Source: Sphingosinicella soli (GTDB lineage Bacteria > Pseudomonadota > Alphaproteobacteria > Sphingomonadales > Sphingomonadaceae). From it: a stretch of DNA of 64,000 nt. Shown here in pieces: positions 4,735-58,936 of this stretch. The stretch is taken from positions 1 through 64,000 of the forward strand of contig NZ_JACHNZ010000023.1 in NCBI RefSeq assembly GCF_014199685.1. Direction: 5' to 3'. Under the pieces are notes generated by a model. It saw only the letters and a program-made list of their open reading frames with translations. It was not told where the DNA came from and did no database searches. The stretch's first letter is position 1. Each line of letters begins with the position of its first letter. A program made the translations under genes and the position numbers.

Positions 4735-4755
4735 CTGACGCGCTAAACGTACCAC

Positions 4756-17015: not shown

Positions 17016-17112
17016 TGCTTCCCTCCGCGTGCCCATAGTGGGCACCCACCGAGACACAGATCGAAGCCCGAGAATACCCTACACTCAATATATGATTCTC
17101 AGTACCATGAAA

Positions 17113-17266: not shown

Positions 17267-17338
17267 AGACAGCCTCTTGTGAGAGAGGCTATTGACGGGG
17301 TTCTCAGGTTGTTGATGGGATCAGGGGTACGCTTGGCC

Positions 17339-19447: not shown

Positions 19448-19473
19448 GACATCATCCTTGCGAGTTCGATCCT

Positions 19474-23454: not shown

Positions 23455-23466
23455 GTAGTCTGCAGG

Positions 23467-23507
23467 AAGCCCTGCTGCCGCCCTTCGCAAGCGGTGGCAG
23501 GGCTTTT
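23467..23507 (+). terminator. Strong intrinsic terminator after the TonB receptor
   Basis: AAGCCCTGCTGCCGCC (from 23467) pairs with GCGGTGGCAGGGCTT, followed by TTTT to 23507. Only 40 bases separate it from the amine oxidase start, so that gene must rely on read-through or a promoter of its own. Confidence 0.8.
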
Positions 23508-23546
23508 GTCTGTCGACGACGCCCCCTCGTCTCAAACGAGAGTTGC

Positions 23547-30180: not shown

Positions 30181-31328
30181 CGCAGCCCCAATCCGCGCGC
30201 AATGATGCCGCGCAATATCTCCCGTGTTCCGCCACGCAGCGAAAAGCTTGGCGCCATCATCGTGAGATAGAACAATGTCCGCAAAAGTGCGTCGCTAGCG
30301 TCCTCCTCGGGATGGCTCGCCAGATCGTCGGCAATCAGGTCCGGCACGGACTGCTCGAACCCCGTACCGAGATCCTTCAGGATCGATGCTTCAACGACCG
30401 GCCGCTCGCCTGCGGCGAGGTGCGCAGTGACAGCGATGGAGACGGCCCGAAGCGTTGCGAGCTGCGCCGTCAGGCGTCCGAGAAGCGTTGTGCCGGCCTC
30501 GTTCCGTCGGCCGTTGGCCTCCAAATGTGCCATCCAGGCATCCAGAAGCACGACACTTGAATATATGCGCTCCGGGCCGCTGCGTTCGAGCGCAAGCTCG
30601 GCAGTCACTTGCGCCCACCCGGCCCCTTCGTTGCCGACGAGCATGTCCTCAGCGAGAAAGACGTTCTCGAAGAAAACTTCGGCGAAGTGCTCATCGCCGC
30701 CAAGATCTCTGATCGGCCGTACCGTCACGCCGGGTGATTTGAGATCGATGATAAATTGGGAAAGTCCTTCGGACCGGTCTGCCGCAGTGCCCGACGTGCG
30801 CACGAGCGCAATCATGTAGTCGGCATGCTGGGCGTTGGTCGTCCAGATCTTCTGGCCGTTCAGTATCCAGCCGTTGTCCGTACGTTCGGCCCGGCTTCTC
30901 ACGCTCGCGAGATCGGAGCCTGCGCCGGGCTCGCTCATCCCGATACAAAAGCAAAGCTCGCCTTTGGCGATCCCAGGCAGATAGCGTTCACGCTGCGCTT
31001 CCGTCCCGAAATGCAGAATGAGCGGTCCCGACTGGCGGTCGGCGATCCAGTGCTCCGCCACGGGGGCGCCGACCGCGAGCAGTTCCTCGACAATCACAAA
31101 GCGAGAGAAGGGGTCGAGGTTCTGTCCCCCATATTCACGAGGCAGGGTGAGACCCAGATAGCCTGCGGCGCCGAGCGTTCGGCTCAAAGATCGGTCGAAT
31201 CCCATCCATGACCTGGCACGGACATCGACAGGCAGATGCCCGACGTGCTTCGCAAGCAATTGCCGCAGCGGAGCCCGCAGCGCTTCCGCGCTACCCGGCA
31301 GCCCCTGAAGCTCAAAATTTCCTAACAC
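30177..31328 (-). CDS. Acyl-CoA dehydrogenase, large subunit
   Basis: A 383-residue chain starting at GTG with GGAGAG seven bases upstream. FAD/substrate motifs are present: CIGMSEPGAGSDLASV and WILNGQKIWTTNAQHA. The end reads SLRGGTREILRGIIARGLG: the place where homotetrameric enzymes have YEG with the catalytic Glu is changed, which fits a heteromeric partner of the 29.2 kb gene. First gene of a minus-strand operon with the second subunit, crotonase, APC permease and SMR. Operator copy at 31384. Confidence 0.87.
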   Translation of the reverse strand: MLGNFELQGLPGSAEALRAPLRQLLAKHVGHLPVDVRARSWMGFDRSLSRTLGAAGYLGLTLPREYGGQNLDPFSRFVIVEELLAVGAPVAEHWIADRQSGPLILHFGTEAQRERYLPGIAKGELCFCIGMSEPGAGSDLASVRSRAERTDNGWILNGQKIWTTNAQHADYMIALVRTSGTAADRSEGLSQFIIDLKSPGVTVRPIRDLGGDEHFAEVFFENVFLAEDMLVGNEGAGWAQVTAELALERSGPERIYSSVVLLDAWMAHLEANGRRNEAGTTLLGRLTAQLATLRAVSIAVTAHLAAGERPVVEASILKDLGTGFEQSVPDLIADDLASHPEEDASDALLRTLFYLTMMAPSFSLRGGTREILRGIIARGLGLR

Positions 31329-31383
31329 GAAACACTCTCCATTTCGCAACACCCCACGTGCCAGCATGGGGCTCTGTGCTGTG

Positions 31384-31707: not shown

Positions 31708-32880
31708 ATGAGAGTCGACCTGCTTTACGCGCTGACAAACCGGTCGGGCCAAATGAGCTGGCACGAGGTTCTGGAAGCCGCGCGCAGGCATGCCATCATG
31801 GCGGACAAGATAGGTTTCGATGGAATCTGGCTCGGCGAACACCACTTCGATGCCGACGGCGTGGACGCATGTGCGAATCCGATCATGCTGGCCACCGACC
31901 TCGCAGCACGGACGGAGCGCATCCGCCTCGGCCTCGCGGCCGTCCAGTTGCCGCTTTGGCATCCGGTCCGGCTCGCGGAAGATCTCTCCATGCTCGATCA
32001 TTTCAGCGGCGGCCGTCTTGAGCCGGCGTTTGCGCGCGGCATCGTCGACTTCGAGGTGATGAACATCAACCCCGCAGCGGACCGCTGGAGCAAGGGCCCC
32101 GAAACCAGCGAAGCCATATTCGAAGAAAACTTCCAGGCCTTGAAGGCCGCGATGACGATGAAGTCGTTCAATTTCAAGGGAGAACGCTATACGTTCCCCT
32201 ACCCCAACCAAAAGTACAAGCATGGCTTCGGCGCCATCGAGAATCACAACCCGGTTGATCATGGTTGCAATACACCGGATGAGAACGGCATTCTCAGTGG
32301 CCTTGGCATTGTCCCGCAGCCGCTGCAGAAGCCCACCCCGCCGATGTACGTCGTCACCGAAAGCATGGGCGGGTTCATGGGTGCGGCGCGCCGCGATATT
32401 GGCGCGATCACCTGGTATCCGACCGGCAAGGGACTGAAAGAACTGTTCGAAACCTATCGCAACGAAGTGAAGACGCTTCATAACAGGGAACTGGCGCTCG
32501 GCGAACGCTGCGCGGTCCTGCGGCTGGCCTTTGTCGCCAAGACCGACGCGGAGGCGCGGAAGGTCACAGAAGACGCCATTGATGGATTTGCAAAGTTCGT
32601 GAACTACGTGCGACGCGCGAACATGTGGCTCGACGTCGACGAGGACCAGAATGACCCTCGCTTTAAAGAAATCCCGATGTTCGACCTGCTGATGGAACGC
32701 GATCACCTGATGATCGGTTCACCCGACAGTGTTATCGAACGCATGACCCGGCTTTCCCGAACTCACAACGTCAAGCACTGGCTCTTGCAGATGGGCTTCC
32801 CCGGTATCCGCAACGCGGACCTGGAATCGTCGCTCGAGCTTTTCGGCAAGGAAGTTCTCCCCGCGCTCAAATCGTTTTAA
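31708..32880 (+). CDS. Luciferase-like flavin-dependent monooxygenase 1 (LLM class)
   Basis: A 390-residue TIM-barrel monooxygenase: FDGIWLGEHHFDADG, then ERIRLGLAAVQLPLWHPVRLAEDLSML, the LLM family pattern with EHHF. A C-terminal SPDSVIERM segment contributes to the flavin site. It needs reduced FMN from a reductase such as the one at 19.5 kb. Long central insert GFGAIENHNPVDHGCNTPDE could shape the substrate pocket. First in a plus-strand operon with two RidA genes, an amidohydrolase and a COG0523 GTPase. Substrate unknown. Confidence 0.9.
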   Translation: MRVDLLYALTNRSGQMSWHEVLEAARRHAIMADKIGFDGIWLGEHHFDADGVDACANPIMLATDLAARTERIRLGLAAVQLPLWHPVRLAEDLSMLDHFSGGRLEPAFARGIVDFEVMNINPAADRWSKGPETSEAIFEENFQALKAAMTMKSFNFKGERYTFPYPNQKYKHGFGAIENHNPVDHGCNTPDENGILSGLGIVPQPLQKPTPPMYVVTESMGGFMGAARRDIGAITWYPTGKGLKELFETYRNEVKTLHNRELALGERCAVLRLAFVAKTDAEARKVTEDAIDGFAKFVNYVRRANMWLDVDEDQNDPRFKEIPMFDLLMERDHLMIGSPDSVIERMTRLSRTHNVKHWLLQMGFPGIRNADLESSLELFGKEVLPALKSF

Positions 32881-32955
32881 ATGCCGATAGTGCGCTTACC
32901 CTTCCGTGTCTGTTGGCAGGCATCCAGGGTTTCCGCACGCAACACAGGAGCAGAT

Positions 32956-33351
32956 ATGACCAAGTTCCTCAATCCCCGAAATGCTCCCTTCCCGCAGTAC
33001 GGCCTGAATCCCGGGGCTGCGGCGAACGGCATGGTGTTCGCCGGCGGCATGGCGTTCGATTTCGATACGATGCAACGCCGCGCCGACGCGGTTTCCGTCC
33101 CCGTCGAAACCCGGCTCTGCCTGGAAGAGATCGAGGAGATCATCGCCGAAGCCGGATGCACGAAGCGCGATATCGTGAAGGTCACCGCGTACCTTTCCGA
33201 CGATTCCTATCGGGCCGAGTTCTGGGGTGCCTTCAAGGAATTCTTCGATCCCGGTCCCTATCCCGCGCGCTGCACGTTCGTTGTCGGCATCGCGGGTGGG
33301 TGCCGGGTTGAACTCGACGCCATCGCGGTCCAGCCCAAAGCGAACGCGTGA
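32956..33351 (+). CDS. RidA/RutC-like protein 1
   Basis: A 131-residue YjgF/RidA protein, AGGAG five bases before the ATG. It has VKVTAYLSDDSYRAEFW, the family Arg in PYPARCTFVVG and the Glu in VELDAIAV. No signal peptide. RidA proteins deaminate enamines and imines; in the uracil Rut pathway RutC speeds hydrolysis of the aminoacrylate product. The stop overlaps the amidohydrolase start, so expression is coupled. It closely resembles RidA protein 2 in the same operon. Confidence 0.9.
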   Translation: MTKFLNPRNAPFPQYGLNPGAAANGMVFAGGMAFDFDTMQRRADAVSVPVETRLCLEEIEEIIAEAGCTKRDIVKVTAYLSDDSYRAEFWGAFKEFFDPGPYPARCTFVVGIAGGCRVELDAIAVQPKANA

Positions 33352-34199
33352 TGGCCGTCCGCACGTTCACGGACTGGCATACACATATATATCTTCCGGA
33401 ACACGCGGGCCCGGTCTGGACCCAACGCGGCACCGAACTTGTCGGGCGCCCCGCGTTCGGGCCTGCCGATCCGAAGGAACATCTACGGACGATGAACGAA
33501 GCCGGAGTCGACCGCTTCGCTATCGTCGGCCTCCAGATCGCCATCATGGGAATGCATGTTCCCAACGACTTCATTGGCTCCTATCTGCACGCGAACAAGG
33601 ATCGCGCCATCGGGATCGGAAGCGTCGATCCCACCCAGCCCGGCGCGGCGGAAGCGCTGAAGACCGCTGTCCGCGAATGGGGGCTGCATGGTGTCAAACT
33701 GTCGCCGCCGTACCAGGGCTGGCACCCCCATTCGGAAGAGGGCTACGCCGTGTACCGCGCGGCGGCCGATCTCGGCATTTTTCTGATGTTTCATCAGGCA
33801 AGCGTGTTCTCGCCCATCGGTTTCCACGAGTATGCGAGCCCGAGCCTGCTGGACAAGGTCGCGCGCGAGTTCCGGGACACCAAGCTTCTGCTCGCCCATT
33901 TCGGCAAGCCATGGATGAATGAGACCGTCGAGCTGATGATGAAGAACCGCAACGTCTATGCGGATATCTCGACGCTGCCGATCAAGACGTGGCAGATGTA
34001 CACGGGCCTGCGCCTCGCGATCGAGGGGCGCGTCACCGACCGGCTCGTCTTCGGCTCCGACTTCCCGTCGTTCAACCCCCGGCAGGCTGCCGACGACTTT
34101 CTCGCGATCGCCGATCTGGGCATGCCGCTTCCGATCCCGCGCGATGTTCTGGAAGACATTCTCTACAATCGTCCATTCGACATGATGGTGAACCAATGA
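33348..34199 (+). CDS. Metal-dependent amidohydrolase (Amidohydro_2, ACMSD-like)
   Basis: A 283-residue TIM-barrel hydrolase starting at GTG 33348 or ATG 33351. Metal ligands are visible: DWHTH near residue 10, a mid His in FLMFHQAS, LLAHFG with another His, and the catalytic Asp in VFGSDFP. The family cleaves C-N bonds or decarboxylates cyclic and unsaturated acids. Both ends overlap the flanking RidA genes by 4 bases. The COG0523 GTPase downstream may load its metal. Confidence 0.87.
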   Translation: MMAVRTFTDWHTHIYLPEHAGPVWTQRGTELVGRPAFGPADPKEHLRTMNEAGVDRFAIVGLQIAIMGMHVPNDFIGSYLHANKDRAIGIGSVDPTQPGAAEALKTAVREWGLHGVKLSPPYQGWHPHSEEGYAVYRAAADLGIFLMFHQASVFSPIGFHEYASPSLLDKVAREFRDTKLLLAHFGKPWMNETVELMMKNRNVYADISTLPIKTWQMYTGLRLAIEGRVTDRLVFGSDFPSFNPRQAADDFLAIADLGMPLPIPRDVLEDILYNRPFDMMVNQ

Positions 34200-34594
34200 T
34201 CACATACATCAATCCCCCGCAGCTCGGCGACTACAGCGGATCCGGCCTCTCGTCCGGAACGGCGACCGACAGGTTCGTCTATGCCGCCGGCCTCGCGCTC
34301 GATCAGAACACGATGAAGCGACGCGCGGATGCCGAGACTATAGCGGACGAGGTCCGCATTTGCCTTGAGAACATTGGCATCATCCTTGCCGAACAAGGCC
34401 TGACCCTGCGCAATGTCGTTAAAACAACCTGCTACCTGCGTGATGAGACCTATCGCGGCGAATTCATCACTGCATATAAAGCCGTGTTCGATCCCGGCCC
34501 CTACCCCGCGCGCTGCAGCTTCGTGCTCGGCCTTGCCTCCAATCTGCGCGTCCAGATCGAGGCAGTCGCCGCGAAGAACGCGGACGAGACCTAA
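34196..34594 (+). CDS. RidA/RutC-like protein 2
   Basis: A 132-residue RidA-family protein; ATGA overlap with the amidohydrolase. The family Arg is in PYPARCSFVLG and the C-terminal Glu in VQIEAVAA. Shares with RidA 1 the segments MKRRADAETI (QRRADAVSV there) and DPGPYPARC, so the pair comes from a duplication or from closely related genes that diverged. A heteromeric trimer is possible. Cytoplasmic. Confidence 0.9.
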   Translation: MITYINPPQLGDYSGSGLSSGTATDRFVYAAGLALDQNTMKRRADAETIADEVRICLENIGIILAEQGLTLRNVVKTTCYLRDETYRGEFITAYKAVFDPGPYPARCSFVLGLASNLRVQIEAVAAKNADET

Positions 34595-34641
34595 AGCTGC
34601 GCGGTCCAATCGTGGACGTTGATTGAGGAAAGTACAGGCCG

Positions 34642-35718
34642 ATGGTATGGGCGCCGGAAGGGCATTTTGACCGTCACCTGCCGTTCTCGCTGCTGACCGG
34701 CTTCCTGGGCAGCGGCAAGACGACGCTTCTCAACTGGGTGTTGCAGAATCCGTCGCTCAGCGATACGGCGGTCGCCATCAACGAGTTCGGATCGATTCCA
34801 CTCGATCACAATTTCGTTGAGGCGGCCCCCGACGATGTCATCGTGCTTGCGAACGGCTGTATGTGCTGCTTCGCAGGCGACGACCTCGGCGCCGCGCTTG
34901 CCCGGATTTTCCGCCATGGCGAGCGCGACGATATCCCTCGCTTCAAGCGCCTCATCATCGAAACGTCAGGACTCGCCGATCCTGAATTCGTGCTGCAGGC
35001 TATCCTCGACAATCCGCTCGGAGGGCGCTTCCTTTGGCTCGATCAGGTCGTCACGACCGTGGATGCCGTGCACGGACTGCAGCAACTCGAACGTCATCGG
35101 GAAGCGCGCAAACAGGCGCGGCTGGCGGACCGGCTTATCATCACGAAAGCCGATCTTGCGGAGAAAGAAGATGTGCACGCGCTTCAGGAAACGCTGCGCA
35201 CAATCAACGGCAATGCCACTCAGTGGCTTCGAAAGGACCCTGCCCTCTCCATTGACCGGATATTTTCCCCATTCTTCCTGAATGAAGACCAGTATCCCTC
35301 GATGCTCAGCGAATGGACCAGAGGAGTCCGCCCGCTACCGGTGACCTGCGATAACCAGAACGCACATGTCCATCATCATTCACACACGGCAGAGGCCGCC
35401 TCCGCCACGCTCATTGCCGACGCCCCGCTCGACTGGCGCCAACTTCACCTCTGGCTGGGGCGAATGCAGCGCGCGTTCGGCGAGAATCTGCTGCGGGTGA
35501 AGGGCATCGTAAATGTCGAAGGCAGCGCAGAACCGATTGTGGTCCACGCGGTTCAATCGACCCTGCACGTTCCCGTCGCGCTCAAGGCTTGGCCAGACGC
35601 CGATCGCCGCACGCGGATCGTGTTCATGTTCACCGGAGAGTTTACGGAGACGCTTCAGGCGCACTGGGCAACGTTCCTGTCCGAAACGCTCAAGCCCGTA
35701 TTCACGGAGCAGCCCTGA
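34642..35718 (+). CDS. COG0523/CobW-type metal-chaperone GTPase
   Basis: A 358-residue G3E GTPase: Walker A GFLGSGKTT at 20-28, zinc-binding GCMCC at 72-76, Walker-B ETSGLADP, TKADL base motif, a His-rich loop HVHHHSH near 235 and the C-terminal CobW domain. The family delivers metal, often Zn2+, to partner enzymes. It is last of the operon with the amidohydrolase, the one clear metalloenzyme there, so it may serve that enzyme. Not likely to be cobalamin-related: no cob genes nearby. Confidence 0.9.
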   Translation: MVWAPEGHFDRHLPFSLLTGFLGSGKTTLLNWVLQNPSLSDTAVAINEFGSIPLDHNFVEAAPDDVIVLANGCMCCFAGDDLGAALARIFRHGERDDIPRFKRLIIETSGLADPEFVLQAILDNPLGGRFLWLDQVVTTVDAVHGLQQLERHREARKQARLADRLIITKADLAEKEDVHALQETLRTINGNATQWLRKDPALSIDRIFSPFFLNEDQYPSMLSEWTRGVRPLPVTCDNQNAHVHHHSHTAEAASATLIADAPLDWRQLHLWLGRMQRAFGENLLRVKGIVNVEGSAEPIVVHAVQSTLHVPVALKAWPDADRRTRIVFMFTGEFTETLQAHWATFLSETLKPVFTEQP

Positions 35719-35739
35719 TGCGATTTTGAAGGCCCGTCT

Positions 35740-36918
35740 TCAAAGACGCTCGATGATTGTCGCATTGGCCATTCCGCCGGCCTCGCACATGGTTTGCAAG
35801 CCGTAGCGATCTCCGTTCTGTTCGAGCGCATGGAGCATCGTGACCATGAGCCGTGCCCCCGAAGCGCCGAGAGGATGGCCAAGTGCGATCGCACCACCGC
35901 GCGGGTTGAGACGGTCCGGATCGGCGCCGAATTCGGCGGCCCAGGCGAGCGGCACGGACGCGAACGCCTCGTTCACCTCGAAATGGCTGATCGAATCGAT
36001 TCCAAGGCCGCTCTTGGCGAGAATTCGGCGCGTTGCGGGGATTGGCGCGGTCAGCATGAACAGTGGATCGTCGCCCACAACATCGAAAGCGACAAATCGC
36101 GCCCTTGGCGTGAGGCCCAATCGGCGCGCAACGGGCTCAGCCATGATGAGCAGTGCAGCAGCACCGTCAGCCAGCTGCGAAGAGTTTCCGGCTGTGACAC
36201 TCCATTCGATATCCGGGAAGCGCGCCGACATCTCAGCGGAAACGAACGATGTACGCAGTGCCGCAAGAGCTTCCGAGGTGGTTCCCGGTCGGATCGTTTC
36301 GTCGCGCGACATGATCCCGCCGGGCGTAGCGACGGAAACGGTCTCGGAATCGAAAAGGCCGGCGTCCTGTGCCCTTGCCGCACGCGCGTGCGAGGCCGCC
36401 GCATAAGCGTCGAGCTGGCTGCGGCAAAGCCCCCAGCGCTGCGCGATCAGTTCGGCGGCGACGCCTTGCGAGACAAGCCCGGGGGCAAAGCGCGCGCTCA
36501 CGCCATATCCGAAAATGTCGGCACCCATGCGGGCCGATCCCAATGGGACGCGGCTCATGGATTCGATTCCGCCAGCAATCACGATCTCATTATGGCCGGC
36601 CATGATCCCCTGGACGGCAAACTGGATGGCCTGCTGGCTCGATCCGCATTTCCTGTCGATTGTTGTCGCCGGCACATGAGTTGGAAACCCCGCTGAAAGG
36701 AGCGCCATGCGCCCCGGCGTATTCGCTTGCTCTCCGGCTTGGGAGACACAACCGACGATAACGTCGTCGATCAGGCCCGAATCGAGTCCATTGCGGTCGA
36801 CGATCTGCCTCAACACCCCTGCCAGCAGATCGACCGGATGCACTTCGGACAATGCGCCGCCTGGCTTGCCACGCCCCATGGGCGTGCGCAGCGCATCGAC
36901 GATGACAGCTTCGATCAT
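35740..36918 (-). CDS. Acetyl-CoA acyltransferase (thiolase)
   Basis: A 392-residue thiolase: the nucleophilic Cys is in TIDRKCGSSQQA, the His in GGAIALGHPLGASG and the second Cys in MCEAGGMAN, all in place. Reaction: thiolytic release of acetyl- or propionyl-CoA from a 3-oxoacyl-CoA. Coupled by a 4-base overlap to the acyl-CoA dehydrogenase gene upstream. Converges with the GTPase gene, stops 21 bases apart. Confidence 0.92.
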   Translation of the reverse strand: MIEAVIVDALRTPMGRGKPGGALSEVHPVDLLAGVLRQIVDRNGLDSGLIDDVIVGCVSQAGEQANTPGRMALLSAGFPTHVPATTIDRKCGSSQQAIQFAVQGIMAGHNEIVIAGGIESMSRVPLGSARMGADIFGYGVSARFAPGLVSQGVAAELIAQRWGLCRSQLDAYAAASHARAARAQDAGLFDSETVSVATPGGIMSRDETIRPGTTSEALAALRTSFVSAEMSARFPDIEWSVTAGNSSQLADGAAALLIMAEPVARRLGLTPRARFVAFDVVGDDPLFMLTAPIPATRRILAKSGLGIDSISHFEVNEAFASVPLAWAAEFGADPDRLNPRGGAIALGHPLGASGARLMVTMLHALEQNGDRYGLQTMCEAGGMANATIIERL

Positions 36919-38084
36919 GTTGGGGCTCCGGCGCGGAGAATACCGCGCGCAATGATCTTTTTCTGAATCTCGGATGCGCCCTCATAGATGCGCATGGGCC
37001 TGAGTTCGCGGTAGAGGCGTCCAACGACGCTTTCACCGCTTACGCCCTCCGCGCCGAACAGCTGTACCGCCGCATCGACCACGCGCTGGGCAGCCTCGGT
37101 TGCGATCAGCTTGGCAAGCGCAGCTTCGGTCGATCGACGCCCACCGATAACATCCGCTGTCCACGCCGCACTATAGACCGCGAGCATGCCAGCCTCGATA
37201 TCGGCGCGCATTTCGGCAAGACGCGTCTGCACGCCATCCAGATCTGACATGCGGGTTCCGAACATGCGCCGTGACGAGACCCGTACGACACACTCGGAAA
37301 GAGCGCGCTTTGCAAGGCCGATCGCGGCTGCCCCGACGGAAGGCCGGAACATATCAAACCCGGCCATCGCCATGCGCATTCCGTCCCCTTCACCACCAAT
37401 CCGCTGACTGTCCGGAACGAATACATCGTCGAATACGACAGTGGAGAGTGGGCAATCGTCGATCATGGGAATTTCACGATCAATGCGGATTCCCGGTGTG
37501 CCGGAATCGACGATAAAGGCCGAGATTTGCGGCGGACGATCCCGGTCTGCGGAGCGCGCCAGCACGAAATAGTGATTGGCAAAATGCCCATTTTGTATCC
37601 ACACCTTTTCGCCGTTGAGACGATAACCTCCGGGCTGAGGCGATGCTGTCGTCTCGACGGATGCAACATCAGAAGCGCTGTGAAGCTCGCTGATCGCAAT
37701 TGCACTGACGGATTCGCCGCGGCGAGCCCGATCGATATAGCGCTCGCGCAGTAGATGATCGGAAAGTGTCAGGGGTGAAAGTCCGATCCCTTGCGTGGCA
37801 AACAGAGACGCGGCCAGATTGCTCTCATAGGCCAGGGCTTCGCGGACGATGCAGATCGTGCGCTGGTCGAAACGAGGGACGGCGCCGTCATTACAGTTAG
37901 GAAGGACATATTCCAGCAATCCGCCCGCAGCGAGGCTTGCCACGATCCGGCGGCATCTGCCGGCGAAACTCCCGTTGGCGTCGTGCAGAAGTTCGCGGTG
38001 CTCAACGCACCAGCGCTGCACCTCAAGCGCAAGCCGGGCATGTTCTTCCTCGAAGAACGGCAGAGTCGGTAATTGCCAACTCAT
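36915..38084 (-). CDS. Acyl-CoA dehydrogenase (homomeric type)
   Basis: A 389-residue enzyme starting at the ATG of MSWQLPTLPFF. It has the FAD/substrate motifs of the family: VSAIAISELHSASDVASVE and YRLNGEKVWIQNG. The end carries RIYEGASEIQKKIIARG with the YEG Glu, so unlike the 29-31 kb pair it should be catalytically self-sufficient. Follows the second luciferase-like gene by 43 bases and overlaps the thiolase gene. Oxidises an acyl-CoA to the enoyl-CoA. Confidence 0.87.
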   Translation of the reverse strand: MSWQLPTLPFFEEEHARLALEVQRWCVEHRELLHDANGSFAGRCRRIVASLAAGGLLEYVLPNCNDGAVPRFDQRTICIVREALAYESNLAASLFATQGIGLSPLTLSDHLLRERYIDRARRGESVSAIAISELHSASDVASVETTASPQPGGYRLNGEKVWIQNGHFANHYFVLARSADRDRPPQISAFIVDSGTPGIRIDREIPMIDDCPLSTVVFDDVFVPDSQRIGGEGDGMRMAMAGFDMFRPSVGAAAIGLAKRALSECVVRVSSRRMFGTRMSDLDGVQTRLAEMRADIEAGMLAVYSAAWTADVIGGRRSTEAALAKLIATEAAQRVVDAAVQLFGAEGVSGESVVGRLYRELRPMRIYEGASEIQKKIIARGILRAGAPT

Positions 38085-38127
38085 CGCCGTGCATCTCCAG
38101 GCGACGCGTACGAACTGTTGGGGATCA

Positions 38128-39228
38128 CTACTGCGCCAAACGCTTCTGCAAGCGGGAACTCCCCTCAAAGCGCGGCATGACCTCGGCTGCGAACCGGTTC
38201 AACATCCGGTGACGCACATATTTGGGAACCCCGGGCGTGCAGTTGTTCACGATAATATGGTTGAACCCGATCTCCATGAATTCGCGAACGCGTCGCTCTA
38301 CGGTATCCGGGCTGCCGACGATGTTGAAGCTCAGGAAATCCTCAAGATTGTCTGGGTTCGCGAGTTTCTTCAGATTAGCAAACGTCCGTTCGAATTGCTC
38401 ATAGCCTGTAATATCGGACCAATTGGTGAGATCGCCCTGATAGTGATCGACCTGCGTCTGGAAGTAAGATGGCAGGTATTTGATTGCTTCTTGCCGGGCC
38501 TCTTCATCCGTATCGCCAATGTAGCACTGAACCAGTATCGGGCGGGTCTCCGCGGCAGGCAGTCCAATCTCTTTCGCTCTTTCATTCCAGTTGGACTGAA
38601 TGGATTCGAGAACCTTTCCTGGAAACTGGCCGATGGCGATCGGTGGCAATCCCAGGTCCGCCATCAGGCCGGCGCTGCTGGCACTGCCAATCGCGCCATA
38701 GAAGTTGGGGCGTTTTCCGGTAAGACGGGGACGCGCTGTGATTGTACGGTCGACGCTCAGATATTCACCCTTGTAGCTGAAGGGCTCTCCCTTGAGCGCA
38801 AGCTCAATAATCTCGTAAGCCTCGCGAAAACGTTCACGCGCTTCCGACATGTCGACGCCAAACGCATCATATTCCAGTTTCGCAACGCCCCGGCCCATGC
38901 CAATGTGAAGATTGGCCCCCGACAGCATCTGCAGCATCGCGAGCTCTTCGGCCAGCCGCAGCGGATTGTACCATGGCAGGACAAGAACGCATGTGCCCAG
39001 ATCGAGCCCCGGGCATGCGGCAGCGATGTACGAGAGAAGCGTGACCGGATTTGGAGTTGGGAAATAATCGGTAAAGTGATGCTCGATCACCCACACCGCC
39101 TCAAAACCGAGTGACTGCCCCAGTTTCGCATCCTCAATCGCATCCCGGTACAGCTGCTCGTCCGATGTCCCGGGTTCGCCTACGGCGCCCACCTGAAAGC
39201 TGAACGCGACCGCCTGATTTTCAGCCAT
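38128..39228 (-). CDS. Luciferase-like flavin-dependent monooxygenase 2
   Basis: A 366-residue LLM-class enzyme: FEAVWVIEHHFTDYFPTPN, LDLGTCVLVLPWYNPLRLAEELAM, then SPDTVERRVREF near the end. EHHF and the LPxxxPLRLAEE pattern put it in the bacterial-luciferase group with LLM 1. First of a minus-strand operon with acyl-CoA dehydrogenase and thiolase, so its product probably enters a CoA route. The promoter at 39259-39287 has an operator in its spacer. Confidence 0.9.
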   Translation of the reverse strand: MAENQAVAFSFQVGAVGEPGTSDEQLYRDAIEDAKLGQSLGFEAVWVIEHHFTDYFPTPNPVTLLSYIAAACPGLDLGTCVLVLPWYNPLRLAEELAMLQMLSGANLHIGMGRGVAKLEYDAFGVDMSEARERFREAYEIIELALKGEPFSYKGEYLSVDRTITARPRLTGKRPNFYGAIGSASSAGLMADLGLPPIAIGQFPGKVLESIQSNWNERAKEIGLPAAETRPILVQCYIGDTDEEARQEAIKYLPSYFQTQVDHYQGDLTNWSDITGYEQFERTFANLKKLANPDNLEDFLSFNIVGSPDTVERRVREFMEIGFNHIIVNNCTPGVPKYVRHRMLNRFAAEVMPRFEGSSRLQKRLAQ

Positions 39229-39258
39229 CTCTCACCCTTGCAAAATCTATATGTTAGA

Positions 39259-39318
39259 AAAATATACCATTAGGTATTATCTGGCAATCAAAAACTTACT
39301 TGTAATACCTTTAGGTAT
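39259..39318 (-). promoter_or_regulatory. Promoter with two perfect operators before LLM 2
   Basis: Minus strand: -35 TTGCCA (39282-39287), 17-base spacer, -10 TATTTT (39259-39264). ATACC-ATTA-GGTAT (39264-39277) lies in the spacer. A second perfect copy, ATACC-TTTA-GGTAT, is at 39305-39318, with 41 bases between centres. These are the cleanest examples of the shared operator. Confidence 0.75.
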
Positions 39319-39411
39319 ATCGCTACAGGGTCAGAGATGCGCGCGTGGGCCATCGATTTTCGCTCGCATGGCCCTGTGACGCCTACACAGAATGAGTCGA
39401 TTGGATCGATA

Positions 39412-40938
39412 TCAATCGAAGAGCGATGCTGCTTTCTCTGCAATCATTATAGTCGCCGCAGCAGTATTGCTCGAGACGATCTCCGGCATAATGGACGCAT
39501 CAGCCACGCGAAGTCCGGCAATCCCATGAACCTGCAACTGAGGGTTCACGACTGCCAATGCATCAGTTCCCATGCGACAACTTCCCGCCGGATGGAAATA
39601 CGTGCTGAGGCCGTCCCGGATCGTCTGTTCGAGATCGTGGCGGTCAAGCGACAGGAGTGCGTCCGTTCCGGAGTACCCACCCCATTCTTCGAAGGCATCC
39701 GTGCGGGTCATCCTGTGAACAGCCTCGACGCCGGATATTAACTGCGCGACTTCGTCAGGATGACTGAGATAATCGAAGTCGATCAATGGTGCCGTGCGCG
39801 GATCGCTGTCGCGCAGGGATATGCTGCCGCGGCTGCGCGGGCGCATATGGCCGATGCCGAAGGTGAAGCTGTTCGCGACCGGCCTTTGCCAGGGCGTGTG
39901 ATAATCCACCTGAACATGCACGATCTGCAGTTCAGGCCGGCTCTGCCCTGGATCGGTTTTCATGAATAACGTCGATTCCGCCAGATTTCCAGACGGCGGC
40001 GGCAACGGTTTTGATGCGTGATAACGAATGCCGGCAAGCAGGACATGATCCTGCAGATTGCGACCGACACCGGGAAGATCGGCTACCACGGGAATGCCCA
40101 GTGCATTCAGCTCCGCGGCAGCGCCGATACCGGACAGCAGCAGCAAACGCGGCGAATCGATCGCTCCGGCGCAGAGGATCACCTCGGCTGCCTCCGCGTG
40201 AAGTGCCGTCCCTGACATCTGGTAGCCAAGTCCTGTACAGCGCGCGCCGTCAAATGTCAGGTGGCGCACGAACGCGCCCGTCTCTACGACCAGGTTCGGC
40301 CGGCCCATAGCCGGTCGTAGATACGCCGTTGCCGTGCTCTGACGCCTCCCACCCGCGATCAAAACGTCCTGCCGGCTCGCTCCCATCAGCGATGCAGCGT
40401 TCAGGTCCTTCACAACAGCGTGGCCGGCCAACCGTGCCGCGTCGATATAGGCGAGCGCCAAAGGGTGCGGGTTCTCCACCGGCCGAGGCGTGAGCGGACC
40501 TCCCGTCCCGCGATAGTGGGGATCACCGTCAGGCACATGTTCGGATCGTTTGAAAAAAGGAAGAACCGATTCGTAGTCCCAACCTTCAGCGCCCAGTTCC
40601 GCCCAACGATCGAAATCATGAGCATGCCCACGAATATGGGTCATCAGGTTAATTGAACTCGAGCCACCCAGCACCTTGCCCCGATGGCAGGGATAGGACC
40701 GCCCTGTCACGCGCTGCGGTATCGTCGCATAATTCCAGTCAGAAGCGGATTCGAGTGTTGCGGGCCAAGCTGTCGGGTTCTCGATTTCAGGAAGCCGGTC
40801 GTCGCCGCCGGCTTCGAGCAGCAACACGCGCCGGACCGGATCCTCACTCAGCCGCGCAGCGAGCACGCACCCCGCAGTGCCGCCGCCGACCACGATCACG
40901 TCGAACGCCTGCATGACCGACCGCCGGGTTGGCTTCAC
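39412..40938 (-). CDS. GMC-family FAD alcohol dehydrogenase/oxidase
   Basis: A 508-residue GMC oxidoreductase: VIVVGGGTAGCVLAARLSE, LLLEAGG, then the GMC signature GKVLGGSSSINLM. The C-terminal catalytic HPAGSCRMG and SSNTAAATIMIAEK regions are complete. Oxidises a primary or secondary alcohol, FAD-dependent, in the cytoplasm (no signal). Six bases after the RutA-like gene, so co-transcribed. Confidence 0.9.
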   Translation of the reverse strand: MKPTRRSVMQAFDVIVVGGGTAGCVLAARLSEDPVRRVLLLEAGGDDRLPEIENPTAWPATLESASDWNYATIPQRVTGRSYPCHRGKVLGGSSSINLMTHIRGHAHDFDRWAELGAEGWDYESVLPFFKRSEHVPDGDPHYRGTGGPLTPRPVENPHPLALAYIDAARLAGHAVVKDLNAASLMGASRQDVLIAGGRRQSTATAYLRPAMGRPNLVVETGAFVRHLTFDGARCTGLGYQMSGTALHAEAAEVILCAGAIDSPRLLLLSGIGAAAELNALGIPVVADLPGVGRNLQDHVLLAGIRYHASKPLPPPSGNLAESTLFMKTDPGQSRPELQIVHVQVDYHTPWQRPVANSFTFGIGHMRPRSRGSISLRDSDPRTAPLIDFDYLSHPDEVAQLISGVEAVHRMTRTDAFEEWGGYSGTDALLSLDRHDLEQTIRDGLSTYFHPAGSCRMGTDALAVVNPQLQVHGIAGLRVADASIMPEIVSSNTAAATIMIAEKAASLFD

Positions 40939-40944
40939 CGTCGG

Positions 40945-42018
40945 CTAAGCGTGGATCGGCGGGGTGAAATTCTTCATCAGCGGAAACACCTCCTCGCCCA
41001 TCCGCTTGATGTCCTCGACATAGTCCGGGAAGATGAGCATGTAGCCCTCCACCCCCTCAACTTCCGCCCACTTGTCGAGTTCCTTCGCGATCGTCGCGGG
41101 CGAGCCGGCGATGAAATCGGTCGACATGCGCACCATGTCCCCCATTTCGACATTGACAATATTGTGGGACGTGGCGCCACTGTCCGTGGACGCCTGTGCT
41201 ACCATGTAGTTTATGGCCGCACGGTCGGGATGCTCCTCAAAGTCGCGAAGGCGCGCCTGCGCTTCCTCGTCCGTATCTGCGATGACGACGCCGAGCGCGG
41301 CATAGGCCTTGATTGAACGGCCGGCTGTTTCGAGCTGGGCATGATATTTTTTCATTACCTCTGCCAGCTTCTCCTTGCCGCCGAAAGCAAGGCGGAACTG
41401 GTAGTCGGCGTAGCGCGTCGTGAACTCGATCGCCTTGTCCGACGTGCCGGCGCAGACGATGTCGATGTGCCGCGGCGGGCGCGGCCCCATGCGGAGGTCT
41501 TCGAACTGAAAGTGTTTACCCTTGAAGTTCGTCACGCCTTTCTCCCAAAGGTCGCGCACGACTTGGCAATATTCTCCGGCGTACTCCCAGCGATAGCTGT
41601 TGTAGTCATAGCCGGGCCACGTATTTAGAACCTCAAGCTCTTTTGGATGCCAGCCACCCGGCACGATGTTGAGCAGGAAGCGTCCGTCGCTTGCCGAATC
41701 GATCGTCATCGCCATGCGCGCGGCAAGGGCCGGATGCACCGCCAGGATGTTCACGGAGCCGATCAGTTTCATGAACGTCGTGTCGCGGGAAAGCGCCGCC
41801 ATCTCGGTCATCGCCTCGAGCGCGTCGTCCCAAAAGCCGGTGGGGCCGCCATCGCCGAGACCGCGAAGGCACGACAGGCAAAGTGCAAACGAAAAGCCGC
41901 TTTCCTCGCCCGCCTGCGCGATCTCGCGGATCATCGGATAGCTTGGCGAATACTGCGGCGACGTTTCCGAGATGATGAACCCGTTGCGCGCAGACGGCAG
42001 AAAAATCCCGAACTCCAT
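40945..42018 (-). CDS. RutA-like flavin-dependent monooxygenase (LLM 3)
   Basis: A 357-residue protein with clear likeness to RutA, the uracil ring-opening oxygenase: GIFLPSARNGFIISETSPQY, FWDDALEAMTEMAAL, ARMAMTIDSASDGRF, VPGGWHPKE (RutA has TGWQKPE), IVCAGTSDKAIEF. RutA-type enzymes use a flavin-N5-peroxide to cleave amide C-N bonds. It is followed by a GMC dehydrogenase, and the flavin reductase and RidA proteins are in the same regulon, but RutB, RutD and RutE are absent, so the substrate is probably not uracil. Confidence 0.88.
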   Translation of the reverse strand: MEFGIFLPSARNGFIISETSPQYSPSYPMIREIAQAGEESGFSFALCLSCLRGLGDGGPTGFWDDALEAMTEMAALSRDTTFMKLIGSVNILAVHPALAARMAMTIDSASDGRFLLNIVPGGWHPKELEVLNTWPGYDYNSYRWEYAGEYCQVVRDLWEKGVTNFKGKHFQFEDLRMGPRPPRHIDIVCAGTSDKAIEFTTRYADYQFRLAFGGKEKLAEVMKKYHAQLETAGRSIKAYAALGVVIADTDEEAQARLRDFEEHPDRAAINYMVAQASTDSGATSHNIVNVEMGDMVRMSTDFIAGSPATIAKELDKWAEVEGVEGYMLIFPDYVEDIKRMGEEVFPLMKNFTPPIHA

Positions 42019-42095
42019 GGTGCACGTCCCTCCAGCAATGTCATTCGCTTCGAATCAGACCGGGCGTCCAAATCTAATTCAACTTCCTCAGGGTT

Positions 42096-42124
42096 TGAAT
42101 ATATACCAATTGGTATGATCGCAA
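42096..42124 (-). promoter_or_regulatory. Promoter with perfect operator before the RutA-like gene
   Basis: Minus strand: -35 TTGCGA (42119-42124), 17-base spacer holding ATACC-AATT-GGTAT (42103-42116), -10 TATTCA (42096-42101). Confidence 0.7.
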
Positions 42125-42187
42125 GCCGGTTTTTCGTTGATGTTCTCAACAGAATCAAACGCAGCGCATCTATCAGTCTAAAAGGAT

Positions 42188-42201
42188 ATACCGATTGGTC
42201 A
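42188..42201. promoter_or_regulatory. Operator copy on the rightward side
   Basis: ATACC-GATT-GGTCA, one base pair off the consensus on the right arm. It probably serves the rightward MFS transporter and LLM 4 genes, making 42.1 kb a divergent control region. The 42019-42392 gap has no gene that I trust. Confidence 0.5.
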
Positions 42202-42392
42202 TTTTTGTGAACATTGCGAATATAATGTTGACGCATGCGAATATCGTCGTCATTGTTCTGCCTGTCGTTTGCGAGTCCGATGGCACGAGCAGGAGAGACT
42301 CTCGGCGGTTCCCTGACTTCCGGGGGCGATTGGGCTGGCCCACGGCCCTTATAAGAACGGAGCTGTGTCGTGCGGTGCCAGAGTTCCTGCCT

Positions 42393-43739
42393 ATGATGAG
42401 CGGCCAGACAGAAGCGGCGTTTTCTGAAGGATTGAAAGTTTCGTCAGCGGTCGTTGTCGAGCCGACGGAGTGCAGTCCGGCGAGACAGCAGTCGGCGATC
42501 CTCGTGCTGGTCATGATCACTGCCGTATATGTCGTCAGCTATATGGATCGGCAGATTTTCGCGTTGCTTCTGCCTGAAATCAATCGCGATTTCGTTCTTA
42601 CCGACACGCAGATCGGTCAATTGACCGGCATCGCCTTTCCAGTCGTCTATGCCCTCGTCAGCCTGATCGCAGCGGTCGTGGCGGACCGGCTCAACCGGAT
42701 CAGGCTGATCGGTTTTTGTGTTGCGCTCTTTTCAGTGATGACAGCAGGCTGTGGAGCAGCCCAGGGCTTCTGGTCGATGTTCATCGCCCGCCTCGGCGTC
42801 GGCATTGGAGAAGGCGGAACCGCGCCCCCGTCGCTTTCACTGATCGCCGATCATTTCGATGGTCCTAGGCGCCAATGGGCGAACTCGGTTTATGCAACCG
42901 CCGGCGTGTTCGGCATGCTCGGCGCCTATATTCTCATCGGAAGCATCAGCGCCTGGTTCGGCTGGCGCGTAGCGTTCTATTGTGCCGGCGCACTGGGTCT
43001 TGTCGTCGCCGCATGCGTTCTCATCAGTTTGCGGGAAACACCCAACCGCGCGAACCGCGCGATGAAGCTCACCGATCTTCGCGAGTTTCCGGCATTGTTC
43101 AGGATCAAGAGTTTCCGCTGGGCAATGGGCGCGGCCATTCTGCACACCATTCTGACCGAATCGACCGTACAATGGTTGCCGCTCTTCCTGTCACGATCAC
43201 TCGCAATGAGTCAGCTGCACATTTCGTGGTTCCTCGGCATCGGCTATGGCATCCTCGGTCTCGCCGGCATCGTGGTGGGGACCGTCTTTGCCACGCGGCT
43301 GCGCAAGAGGTCGGTTGGTTCGCCCCAATATCTTGGAACAGCCGTCACAATTTGCATATCGCTGGCCTATACGGTTGCCTGCCTGTCAAGCTCCGCCGCC
43401 ATCACTCTGGGAATGCTGGCAATCGTCATTTTTCTTACGATATCGTGCTACGGCGCACTTCTCGCTTTTGTTCAGGACGTGACGCCCGAAGACAGCCATG
43501 CCAAAGCATCGGCCATCCTGTTCCTTCTCATGCAGCTCGGACTCGGCATCGGCTCTCTTTCCATCGGCATTCTGAGCGATACGTTTGCACCAATCGTCGG
43601 TCAGACTGAGTCACTCCGCTATGCACTGCTCCCCGTTGTGATAATCGCCGGCCTCTGCGCATCGATCTGCTATTTCAAGGCGGGGCGCAGCGCCGACGCC
43701 GATGCATGGCTGCCTATTCCGAAGCCGGCCTCGTTTTGA
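42393..43739 (+). CDS. MFS transporter
   Basis: A 448-residue, 12-helix permease from the ATG at 42393; an in-frame ATG-like start at 42195 would add 66 residues of non-membrane sequence. Helix 1 reads VYVVSYMDRQIFALLLPEI, typical of the spinster/anion:cation symporter-like MFS group. Loop 2-3 has ADRLNRIRLI and GIGEGGTAPPSLSLIAD follows. Imports an organic acid or amide. Followed after 38 bases by LLM 4, so co-transcription is likely. Confidence 0.87.
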   Translation: MMSGQTEAAFSEGLKVSSAVVVEPTECSPARQQSAILVLVMITAVYVVSYMDRQIFALLLPEINRDFVLTDTQIGQLTGIAFPVVYALVSLIAAVVADRLNRIRLIGFCVALFSVMTAGCGAAQGFWSMFIARLGVGIGEGGTAPPSLSLIADHFDGPRRQWANSVYATAGVFGMLGAYILIGSISAWFGWRVAFYCAGALGLVVAACVLISLRETPNRANRAMKLTDLREFPALFRIKSFRWAMGAAILHTILTESTVQWLPLFLSRSLAMSQLHISWFLGIGYGILGLAGIVVGTVFATRLRKRSVGSPQYLGTAVTICISLAYTVACLSSSAAITLGMLAIVIFLTISCYGALLAFVQDVTPEDSHAKASAILFLLMQLGLGIGSLSIGILSDTFAPIVGQTESLRYALLPVVIIAGLCASICYFKAGRSADADAWLPIPKPASF

Positions 43740-43777
43740 CATCCCGACATCGACGACCAGCAGAAAGGGCGTAGACA

Positions 43778-45061
43778 ATGAAAAAAATGCACCTCGTTGG
43801 CCTCAACCATTCCGGCCCTTTGGTTGGAGGCTGGCGCCACCCGGAAGCCCATGCTGACTATCTCGATCCAGCATGCTGGGACCGGGTTGCGCGGACACTC
43901 GAGAACGGCCGGTTCGACGCCATCTTCTTTGCCGACGCGCAGACGTTCTACAACGAGCAGATGACCCGCAAGGGCGGGGACGTCTATCTGCTCGATCCAG
44001 TCCCCCTTGCGATGTCGGTTGCTCGCGCAACTGAAAAACTCGGCATCGGCATCACGATTTCCACGAGCCTGTTTGAGCCCTTTGGCATCGCCCGCGCGCT
44101 CGGCACGCTCGACGTGCTCAGCGGCGGACGTATCGCGTGGAACGTCGTGACCTCCGTTTCGGATCAGGAAGCCCACCGCTACGGGATGCCCGGGCTGCTT
44201 CCCAAGAACGAAAGGTACGACCGCGCCGACGAGGTCATCGAGGCATGCATGCAGCTGTGGGACAGTTTCCCGCCCGATGCCCTCGTTGCCGACAAGAAGC
44301 GCGGACTCTTCATCGATCCAGACAAGCTCGTGCACCTCACCTATGAAGGGAAGCATGTAAAGACAGAGGGCCCCCTCACCGTGCCGCCCAGCCCGCAGGG
44401 CAGACCCGTTATCATGCAGGCCGGGTCTTCCGAGCGCGGGCGGCAGTTTGCTGCACGATGGGCGGAGATTCTGTTTACGTACCAGCACTCGCTGGCGAAC
44501 ATGCAGGCATTCTACAAGGACATGCATGGTCGCATGGCCGCTTTCGGCAGGCCCGCCAATGCCTGCGCTATTCTGCCTTCTTTTCAGCCGATCGTCGGAG
44601 AAACGCGGAGTATCGCCAAGGAAAAGCAGGCCTACCTGTACAGTCTGGTCGATGATGACGTCGCGCTTGCCCGCACATCCATGTCGATCGGCTTCGACCT
44701 TACAAAACTGAAGCCGGGAATGTCGCTGGGCGACCTGTCGGCGGAAGGCGGTTCAAGCGGAGCAATGGACATTCTGAAGATCGCAGCCGCAGGGGAAAAT
44801 CTCAGCATCGTGGAAGCCGCGCGTCGATACGCCTGCAATGCCTTGTGTCCAGAGATCGTGGGAACGGCTGAAGACATCGCGGACTGGATGGGCGGCATTT
44901 TTCGCGCAGACGGTTGCGACGGCTTCGTCGTCATGTCGACGACATCGCCGAGCGCAATGGAAACCTTTACCCGGTCCGTCGTGCCGATCCTGCAGGAACG
45001 CGGCCTGTTCCGCACCGAATACGAAGGCAACACACTGAGAAGTCACCTGAACGAAAGTTGA
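43778..45061 (+). CDS. NtaA/SnaA/DszA-type flavin-dependent monooxygenase (LLM 4)
   Basis: A 427-residue enzyme: MHLVGLNHSGPLVGGWRHPE, FDAIFFADAQTFY, then GRIAWNVVTSVSDQEAHRYG with NVVTS, the signature of nitrilotriacetate monooxygenase/DszA, and PVIMQAGSSERGRQFAA. These are strictly two-component and use FMNH2 to oxidise C-N or C-S bonds. With LLM 3 it makes two C-N/C-S-type oxygenases in a divergent pair. The reductase at 19.5 kb is the likely partner. Confidence 0.9.
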   Translation: MKKMHLVGLNHSGPLVGGWRHPEAHADYLDPACWDRVARTLENGRFDAIFFADAQTFYNEQMTRKGGDVYLLDPVPLAMSVARATEKLGIGITISTSLFEPFGIARALGTLDVLSGGRIAWNVVTSVSDQEAHRYGMPGLLPKNERYDRADEVIEACMQLWDSFPPDALVADKKRGLFIDPDKLVHLTYEGKHVKTEGPLTVPPSPQGRPVIMQAGSSERGRQFAARWAEILFTYQHSLANMQAFYKDMHGRMAAFGRPANACAILPSFQPIVGETRSIAKEKQAYLYSLVDDDVALARTSMSIGFDLTKLKPGMSLGDLSAEGGSSGAMDILKIAAAGENLSIVEAARRYACNALCPEIVGTAEDIADWMGGIFRADGCDGFVVMSTTSPSAMETFTRSVVPILQERGLFRTEYEGNTLRSHLNES

Positions 45062-58854: not shown

Positions 58855-58897
58855 AACGCGCGGGACTGCTGCGAGGAAGAGAAGCGACAATCTGGCA

Positions 58898-58936
58898 GCC
58901 GGAGTTCCGAAGCGCGAGCGTTTTCGGAGCTCCGGC
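58898..58936 (+). repeat. 14-base inverted repeat between receptor and monooxygenase
   Basis: GCCGGAGTTCCGAA pairs with TTCGGAGCTCCGGC (one G-U) around an 11-base loop. No T-run follows, so it more likely stabilises the receptor mRNA or tunes read-through than ends transcription. Confidence 0.5.

Follow-up and report, generated by a model that had tools for sequence, protein, structure and literature searches.

Gene content of the locus

The window analysed here is the whole stretch of 64,000 nucleotides from Sphingosinicella soli (contig NZ_JACHNZ010000023.1, 64,466 bases in all), and its subject is a group of genes for luciferase-like monooxygenases (LLM, family PF00296) at 31.7-45.1 kb together with their neighbours. 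The 3.76-Mb genome has nine PF00296 genes (10 matches, two of which are pieces of the gene at 31708), four of which, LLM1 to LLM4, lie in this region. An initial annotation of this DNA had described an enlarged Rut-like pathway with four LLM enzymes. All four open reading frames (ORFs) do exist, with PF00296 scores (136, 186, 147 and 132 bits, respectively) far above the cut-off of 27.9, and the amidohydrolase (PF04909), crotonase, acyl-CoA dehydrogenases and thiolase named with them are present as well. Thirty window ORFs were scanned with NCBIfam (E<=1e-5, best 25 families each). The genes around LLM1 to LLM4 are the following.

28387..29181, minus strand: enoyl-CoA hydratase/crotonase (NF006699 386 bits, above cut-off)
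29194..30180, minus strand: ACADb, acyl-CoA dehydrogenase of the small-subunit type (IpdE2-like, 90.6 bits)
30177..31367, minus strand: ACADa, acyl-CoA dehydrogenase, divergent from LLM1, likewise in Rhodococcus opacus
31708..32880, plus strand: LLM1, predicted luciferase-type two-component flavin oxygenase (PF00296 135.9 bits)
32881..33351, plus strand: RidA1, enamine/imine deaminase family (PF01042 54.1 bits, cut-off 27.3; likely start ATG 32956)
33348..34199, plus strand: Amidohydro_2 metal enzyme, aminocarboxymuconate-semialdehyde decarboxylase (ACMSD)/decarboxylase group (PF04909 103.7 bits)
34196..34594, plus strand: RidA2 (PF01042 57.7 bits, cut-off 27.3; 48% identity to RidA1)
34642..35718, plus strand: CobW/COG0523 GTPase (PF02492 140.6 bits)
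35740..36918, minus strand: thiolase (TIGR01930 428 bits, above cut-off)
36915..38168, minus strand: acyl-CoA dehydrogenase (PF00441 142.4 bits)
38128..39228, minus strand: LLM2, luciferase-alpha-like oxygenase (PF00296 186.2 bits)
39412..40938, minus strand: GMC oxidoreductase, predicted alcohol oxidation (PF00732/PF05199)
40945..42018, minus strand: LLM3, RutA-related flavin oxygenase (TIGR03612 318.4 bits, cut-off 498.3)
43778-45061: LLM4, DszA/NtaA family (TIGR03860 454 bits, cut-off 279.7)

LLM1 is the first gene of the run LLM1-RidA1-amidohydrolase-RidA2-CobW, and the opposite strand carries the run LLM3-GMC-LLM2-acyl-CoA dehydrogenase-thiolase.

The same genes in Rhodococcus opacus

When genome contigs are searched with LLM3, five loci emerge, the best of which belongs to Rhodococcus opacus ATCC 51881, a distantly related soil actinobacterium. 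Thiolase, RibBA, LLM1, RidA, LLM3 and an aldehyde dehydrogenase (ALDH) lie together on an 11-kb contig of this genome (L001), and a second contig (L022) has, within its initial 20 kb, LLM1, RidA, the amidohydrolase, a major facilitator superfamily (MFS) gene, RidA2, crotonase, two reductases, TetR, GMC and LLM2. The acyl-CoA dehydrogenase pair of L022 is divergent from the LLM1 operon, as in the window, with a short-chain dehydrogenase/reductase and a MaoC gene intervening there. The order LLM1-RidA-amidohydrolase and the adjacency GMC-LLM2 are common to both genomes; in both, ACADb is paired with ACADa and the two RidA genes are kept as a pair.

For the comparison, 45 window proteins were set against 22 R. 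opacus proteins, with RidA2 compared apart. Identity is highest for the amidohydrolase (76%), RidA2 (72%), LLM3 (70%), GMC (63%) and thiolase (61%), followed by LLM1 (58% on L001 and 54% on L022), RidA1 (56%) and ACADa (45-47%). It is lower for RibBA and ALDH (38% each), the reductase and crotonase (36% each), LLM2 (33%), ACADb (27%) and TetR (26%). The amidohydrolase, RidA2, LLM3, GMC, LLM1, RidA1 and LLM2 are reciprocal best matches, paralogue copies apart, and 14 of the 45 window proteins are the best match of some place in the two R. opacus stretches. CobW (34642) has no counterpart in L001 or L022. RidA2, which bears out the plural in which the annotation had spoken of RidA proteins, was found via a DNA match to R. 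opacus (73% over 326 bases); the DNA match of the RidA1 region starts at 32956, and in the GMC match of R. opacus a stop sits upstream of the ATG.

Because R. opacus has this set as well, LLM1, LLM2, LLM3, the two RidA proteins, the amidohydrolase and GMC do look like parts of one catabolic system, and we regard this recurrence as the strongest evidence for the shared set. The single system of the annotation thus stands for these genes, but not for LLM4, which is the best match of no place in L001 or L022 and is left out for this reason.

The two LLM1-RidA copies of R. opacus (L022 9203-10806 and L001 6263-7864) are 84% identical in DNA, and each stands in a separate group of genes. A 127-base end is common to contigs C40 and C69 of this genome; we read it as an assembly overlap and reject the adjacency that could be drawn from it.

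Controls, rarity and a decayed copy

Against a background of 72,556 plasmid records, the matches listed reach at most 29% (LLM1), 42% (LLM3) and 32% (amidohydrolase), far below the R. opacus values. For GMC the listed plasmid matches go up to 46%, and one further record falls between 60 and 80%. Of its matches in R. opacus itself, the best is on C40 (63%) and the others lie at 36-41%. LLM2 has a sole match in that genome at E<=1e-20 (C40:244, 33%), and this gene adjoins GMC as in the window.

In the genomes sampled, the gene set is rare. LLM1 is found at E<=1e-60 in one of 397 genomes of its own family and at E<=1e-50 in one of 398 of its own phylum, in both cases its own genome; on the R. opacus side, again at E<=1e-50, the gene turns up in 4 of 298 genomes for the order and 3 of 394 for the class, both figures including R. 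opacus itself. These samples overlap, and at most four to six candidates were scored per genome. Of 28 genomes from the genus Rhodococcus, R. opacus alone has the amidohydrolase.

A second block of the window, at 13-20 kb, holds the aldehyde dehydrogenases, a regulator and the flavin genes.

13271..14737, minus strand: ALDH1, methylmalonate-semialdehyde dehydrogenase (MMSDH)-like aldehyde dehydrogenase of the predicted CoA-acylating type (TIGR01722 437 bits, cut-off 448.5)
15798..17057, minus strand: RibBA, 3,4-dihydroxy-2-butanone 4-phosphate synthase with a degenerate RibA domain (ribB above cut-off; ribA 39.8 bits)
17279..17956, plus strand: TetR regulator (75% identity to the Sphingobium jiangsuense remnant)
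18008..19633, minus strand: ALDH2, aldehyde dehydrogenase (fragments in the S. jiangsuense remnant)
19474..19974, minus strand: flavin reductase, HsaB/FerA-like (HsaB 175 bits, cut-off 230; RutF 57 bits, cut-off 254.75)

In Sphingobium jiangsuense there is a fragment of LLM3 with 91% identity. It abuts an ALDH2 fragment, followed by pieces of TetR, RibBA and ALDH1 (L003 8249-10474), and the whole is a decayed partial copy. Through its gene order, this remnant connects the block at 13-20 kb with LLM3.

LLM3 is related to RutA

The enzyme at 40945-42018 had been annotated as RutA-type, and RutA-related it is: RutA is both its nearest named family and its closest PDB structure (E 6e-72). The residues of the RutA dioxygen pocket are kept as L65, S105 (S for T105), N134, V136 and W139, the motif having been compared in all but its last two positions; the re-side oxygen-pocket motif is described in excerpts of PMC8234197 and PMC10005588. 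Nevertheless, LLM3 misses the RutA equivalog cut-off by 180 bits, and the phylogeny on which the annotation had staked the assignment goes the other way. In a 20-row tree LLM3 branches outside the clade of rut-operon RutA proteins (excluding branch 95/93; approximately unbiased (AU) test, p 0.0138), and also outside the annotated rutA genes without rutB/rutC neighbours. The clade held for the AU test has 10 rows, picked after inspection of a first tree of 23 rows, which had long branches and from which Jiangella, LLM4 and G016 were dropped to give the 20-row tree. Both LLM3 proteins (window and R. opacus) retain 85 of the 169 residues that do not vary among eight RutA-clade rows, and differ from them at 74. 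By these measures LLM3 is not a RutA; it probably acts like RutA but on another substrate.

The remaining Rut components do not accompany it. RutB, RutD and RutE, which the annotation had already reported as absent, have no match among the 30 ORFs scanned, and RidA1 does not reach the cut-off of the RutC model TIGR03610 (29.2 bits against 169.1). The reductase at 19474, taken for RutF-like at first, scores far below the RutF cut-off and higher with HsaB, and lies 11.7 kb outside the stretch that was named. Hence, with LLM3 outside the RutA clade, the reductase not RutF-like and LLM4 unlinked, the enlarged Rut-like pathway has to be given up.

RutA-like genes without rutB/rutC neighbours occur elsewhere, in Thioclava and Terrarubrum (L039 5001-6083 and L041 4995-6104, annotated rutA), and in Rhodococcus PD04 such a gene lies beside an amidohydrolase, a formamidase and an amidase (L045 8001-9062). 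This suggests further RutA-related enzymes with other substrates.

LLM1 and its relatives

Both LLM1 and LLM2 resemble bacterial luciferase alpha chains most closely. The flavin-N5 oxygen chemistry put forward in the annotation is plausible only for LLM3 and LLM4; LLM1 and LLM2 are luciferase-alpha-like. The predicted structure of LLM1 (mean pLDDT 38.6) is too poor for fold comparison.

In a 22-row tree LLM1 and the R. opacus copies join the LLM proteins of four actinobacterial genomes (G811, G818, G1034 and G1306) and those of Sulfitobacter and Peribacillus (92/97). The relative of LLM1 sits with an ALDH, a flavin or FMN reductase and AA_synth in G811, G818 and G1306; the first two neighbourhoods were scanned with Pfam, the third by tblastn and one Pfam check. 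RibB or RibBA is a neighbour in G811, G818 and G1034 and an alpha/beta hydrolase in G818 and G1306, while G818 has in addition a betaine-type transporter and G811 an amidohydrolase with 44% identity. A similar group of genes, namely AA_synth, alpha/beta hydrolase, flavin reductase, ALDH and succinate-semialdehyde dehydrogenase, makes up the LLM cluster of Sinorhizobium medicae (L032), whose layout we take to be that of trigonelline degradation, and an Aminobacter cluster of the same kind also carries RidA. As to the partners of a TgnB-type enzyme in the window, the reductase and the ALDH genes lie 12-18 kb from LLM1, the adjacent hydrolase is of a different kind, and a TgnD-like hydrolase has no match in the window.

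A plasmid of Peribacillus frigoritolerans (L033 1460-33095) carries four LLM genes, two flavin reductases, RibB, two riboflavin kinases, an acyl-CoA dehydrogenase pair, CoA transferases and lactonases of the metallo-beta-lactamase (MBL) type, as a parallel multi-LLM catabolic island.

RidA pair, amidohydrolase and flavin supply

The arginine of the PAR motif, which we take to be catalytic, is present in RidA1 (PAR invariant with RutC) and in RidA2. A profile search with RutC among the rows is biased towards RutC, and its top match was not used. The amidohydrolase profile matches BB4693 best, followed by decarboxylases of the ACMSD/LigW type, and none of its 18 matches is a chain that bears the name lactonase. 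HxH and the GSDFP residues are kept in all three rows aligned; the predicted structure (mean pLDDT 42.0) is too poor for fold comparison. The adjacent CobW GTPase is possibly a metal chaperone for this enzyme. Together, the RidA pair and the ACMSD-group amidohydrolase tip the set towards nitrogen.

The flavin reductase at 19474 is presumably the source of reduced FMN, and RibBA would serve the flavin supply; RibB or RibBA recurs next to LLM1 relatives, as described above. ALDH1 is the second MMSDH-like copy in the genome, scoring 437 bits where the best copy, on C8, reaches 656. It has the cysteine of SGQRC and lacks the hydrolytic glutamate of ELGGK. The Rut pathway yields a product of the malonic-semialdehyde type, and ALDH1, being diverged, MMSDH-like and devoid of the hydrolytic glutamate, would suit such a product.

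Proposed pathway

Tentatively, we suggest that the genes were acquired horizontally and serve the catabolism of a ring compound that contains nitrogen and is probably heteroaromatic. The nitrogen-containing ring of the annotation remains the favoured candidate substrate. The pathway may proceed as follows.

Step 1: LLM1, with FMNH2 from the 19474 reductase, would open the ring oxidatively next to the nitrogen in the manner of TgnB or PyrA, and the product would be an enamine or N-acyl-enamine aldehyde. RibBA and the reductase would meet the flavin demand.

Step 2: The ACMSD-group amidohydrolase would take off a carboxyl or acyl unit, and RidA1 and RidA2 would hydrolyse the enamine or imine, thus freeing ammonia or an amine. 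LLM3 may use flavin-N5 peroxide chemistry to break the C-N bond of an amide.

Step 3: GMC, the ALDH enzymes and LLM2 would oxidise alcohol or aldehyde groups of the side chain. The acyl-CoA dehydrogenases, crotonase, thiolase and the MMSDH-like, CoA-acylating ALDH would then convert the remaining chain to acyl-CoA units.

A bolder version joins all of this into a single pathway, in which luciferase-type ring cleavage by LLM1 and RutA-type N5-peroxide amide cleavage by LLM3 each feed their own RidA (RidA1 and RidA2, respectively), a substituted or bicyclic N-heterocycle is dismantled to acyl-CoA, and the genes have moved between phyla as a set; in this full form we consider it unlikely. If the pathway proposed in the three steps is right, it would be a new aerobic route for N-heterocycles with a RutA-related subfamily acting on a new substrate, and the paired RidA proteins would belong to the pathway proper instead of clearing up after it. 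The genes of the conserved core (LLM1, RidA1, amidohydrolase, RidA2, GMC-LLM2, LLM3) are few, and deleting them in R. opacus ATCC 51881 would allow the substrate to be tested directly. No published description of such a gene set was found in open-licence PMC text.

Several observations weigh against a nitrogen heterocycle or against the set itself. LLM1 stands outside the clade of the S. medicae and Aminobacter LLM proteins, which is separate (100/99). AA_synth was found neither in the window nor in either R. opacus stretch, and RidA occurs in just one of eight related loci (Aminobacter), being absent from those of S. medicae, G811, G818, G1034, G1306, Peribacillus and Sulfitobacter, so that RidA is no regular partner of this LLM type. 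The best solved relative of the amidohydrolase, BB4693, has no known function. The R. opacus parts are split over two contigs, and the identity of LLM2 is low. The thiolase match is non-specific, with plasmid thiolases up to 68%, and so is that of ACADa, which reaches 45-48% at other R. opacus places (C46, C39, C33), 55% in G414 and 52% in G811; as both failed these controls, their identities were dropped as evidence.

Further points on this side concern the chemistry of LLM1 and lead to another explanation, a type II two-component Baeyer-Villiger pathway. Here LLM1 and LLM2 would turn ketones of an alicyclic, terpenoid-like compound into lactones, the amidohydrolase would open the lactone, the acid would go to beta-oxidation and RidA would merely clear side-product imines. 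The profile of the LLM1 clade matches 3,6-diketocamphane 1,6-monooxygenase nearly full length (positions 26-375, E 6e-35). This is the fourth match, and the three better ones, a Streptomyces LLM and luciferase alpha chains, have their best stretches in the N-terminal half. The clade members of Peribacillus and Sulfitobacter adjoin MBL lactonases and have RibB and no RidA, Peribacillus shares the block of ACADa/b, crotonase and CoA transferase, and the ACAD pair resembles enzymes of the PimC/IpdE2 type. LLM1 alone, however, gives no match to the diketocamphane monooxygenase at E<=1e-8, and the amidohydrolase groups with decarboxylases and not with any chain that is named lactonase. Moreover, the RidA genes are kept as pairs in both genomes, and, apart from the R. 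opacus copies, the proteins nearest to LLM1 (G811, G1306, G818) lie in clusters of the AA_synth type. We hold this pathway to be possible but doubtful. The LLM1 clade spans both readings, trigonelline-like clusters and lactonase clusters, because the lactonases, the diketocamphane match and the scarcity of RidA oppose the trigonelline-like neighbours.

Separate catabolic operons might also have accreted on a single mobile element. No one pathway would then extend across 31.7-45.1 kb, and other compounds would be the substrates of LLM4, the MFS protein encoded next to it and most of what lies to the right of 45 kb. LLM4, both MFS transporters, CobW and an aminotransferase are indeed the best match of no R. 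opacus place, and the genes at 1.5-8.8 kb, described below, suggest a mobile element on this contig of 64,466 bases. Nevertheless, the core is conserved in R. opacus as a set, the S. jiangsuense remnant joins the LLM3 fragment to those of ALDH2, TetR, RibBA and ALDH1, and even right of 45 kb ALDH_53518 is among the 14 best matches of R. opacus, though at a generic 38%. We consider such an accretion improbable. A true pyrimidine (Rut) pathway around LLM3, with RidA as RutC, is very improbable, since the kinship of LLM3 to RutA and the weak RutC match of RidA1 (29 bits) are set against a score far below the RutA cut-off, a position outside the RutA clade, 74 changed invariant residues, a reductase that is not RutF and the lack of RutB, RutD and RutE among the ORFs scanned.

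Comparison with known systems

Compared with the Rut system, the heterocycle set proposed here has a RutA-related LLM3 with the re-side oxygen pocket, RidA homologues and a flavin reductase. It differs from that system in its luciferase-type LLM1 and LLM2, in GMC and in the CoA enzymes, besides the points on LLM3, the reductase and RutB, RutD and RutE given above.

Like the Tgn and Pyr systems, it combines a two-component luciferase-like oxygenase with a flavin reductase, a hydrolase and an aldehyde dehydrogenase. We take TgnAB and PyrA (Arthrobacter sp. 68b) to act in cleavage of the trigonelline and pyridine rings, respectively. However, LLM1 has 24% identity to the Arthrobacter sp. 68b LLM (L027) and 32% over 48% of the length to that of S. 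medicae, and the RidA pair, the ACMSD-group amidohydrolase and the RutA-like LLM3 are not in the S. medicae and Arthrobacter 68b clusters as annotated. Excerpts of PMC8269262 state that TgnA/TgnB open the trigonelline ring, and in excerpts of a study of poly(acrylic acid) monooxygenase (PMC11354265) TgnB is named solely as a network node.

The 3,6-diketocamphane monooxygenase, a type II Baeyer-Villiger enzyme, resembles the LLM1 clade as described, but the window has two RidA genes, and no MBL lactonase was seen among the ORFs scanned. The 2-aminomuconate/ACMSD route, a branch of 3-hydroxyanthranilate degradation, likewise brings together a PF04909 enzyme of the ACMSD group, RidA-family proteins and aldehyde dehydrogenases. 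In contrast to that branch, no ring-cleaving dioxygenase was seen among the window ORFs scanned, and an LLM would open the ring.

LLM4 was placed correctly in the NtaA/DszA family by the annotation: it scores well above the TIGR03860 (NtaA/DmoA) cut-off, and among solved structures DszA comes closest (336 bits). A relative with 54% identity lies on a Paraburkholderia plasmid. Unlike LLM1 to LLM3, it is outside the conserved set.

Four other links were considered and rejected. A link to fusaric acid via Burkholderia sp. IMCC1007 (PMC10293998; L002), whose LLM3 relative has 39-41% identity, fails as the surroundings match the window weakly (LysR 27%, flavin reductase 29%, CoA transferase 29%). 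No link to the window set was found for the progesterone LLM of Caenibius in the excerpts of PMC12239570 or for the Rhodococcus skatole cluster in those of PMC13101512, and the 4-hydroxypyridine cluster, as given in excerpts of PMC7356986, has no LLM in it.

Flanking genes and horizontal spread

The left end of the window (1-8800) has genes of a plasmid or integrative element at 1.5-8.8 kb, namely ArdC anti-restriction protein, SLT transglycosylase, ImpB/MucB polymerase and RadC. The GC content of this part is 0.63-0.70, richer than that of the catabolic genes to its right (mostly 0.55-0.63). These genes fit horizontal spread, and we infer that the set was acquired horizontally. The near matches listed for the left flank (1-9000) are alphaproteobacterial plasmids. 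None is a whole-length match, and the 12 listed matches, of 16 records, cover the polymerase gene only, so that the term mobile element rests on gene content. For a stretch of another contig of the genome, Novosphingobium gives the best near match (79%, over a fifth of the stretch), closely followed by Burkholderia; with the plasmid matches and the LLM3 fragment of S. jiangsuense, which weighs little because the gene is mobile, this fits an alphaproteobacterial host, probably a sphingomonad.

At 21217-25058 a TonB-dependent receptor is followed by a protein of the flavin-containing amine oxidase family, which could act on an amine within the same pathway. Last, the right end of the window (56413-63247) holds a TonB receptor, a FAD monooxygenase-like protein, an unassigned ORF and an alpha/beta hydrolase.

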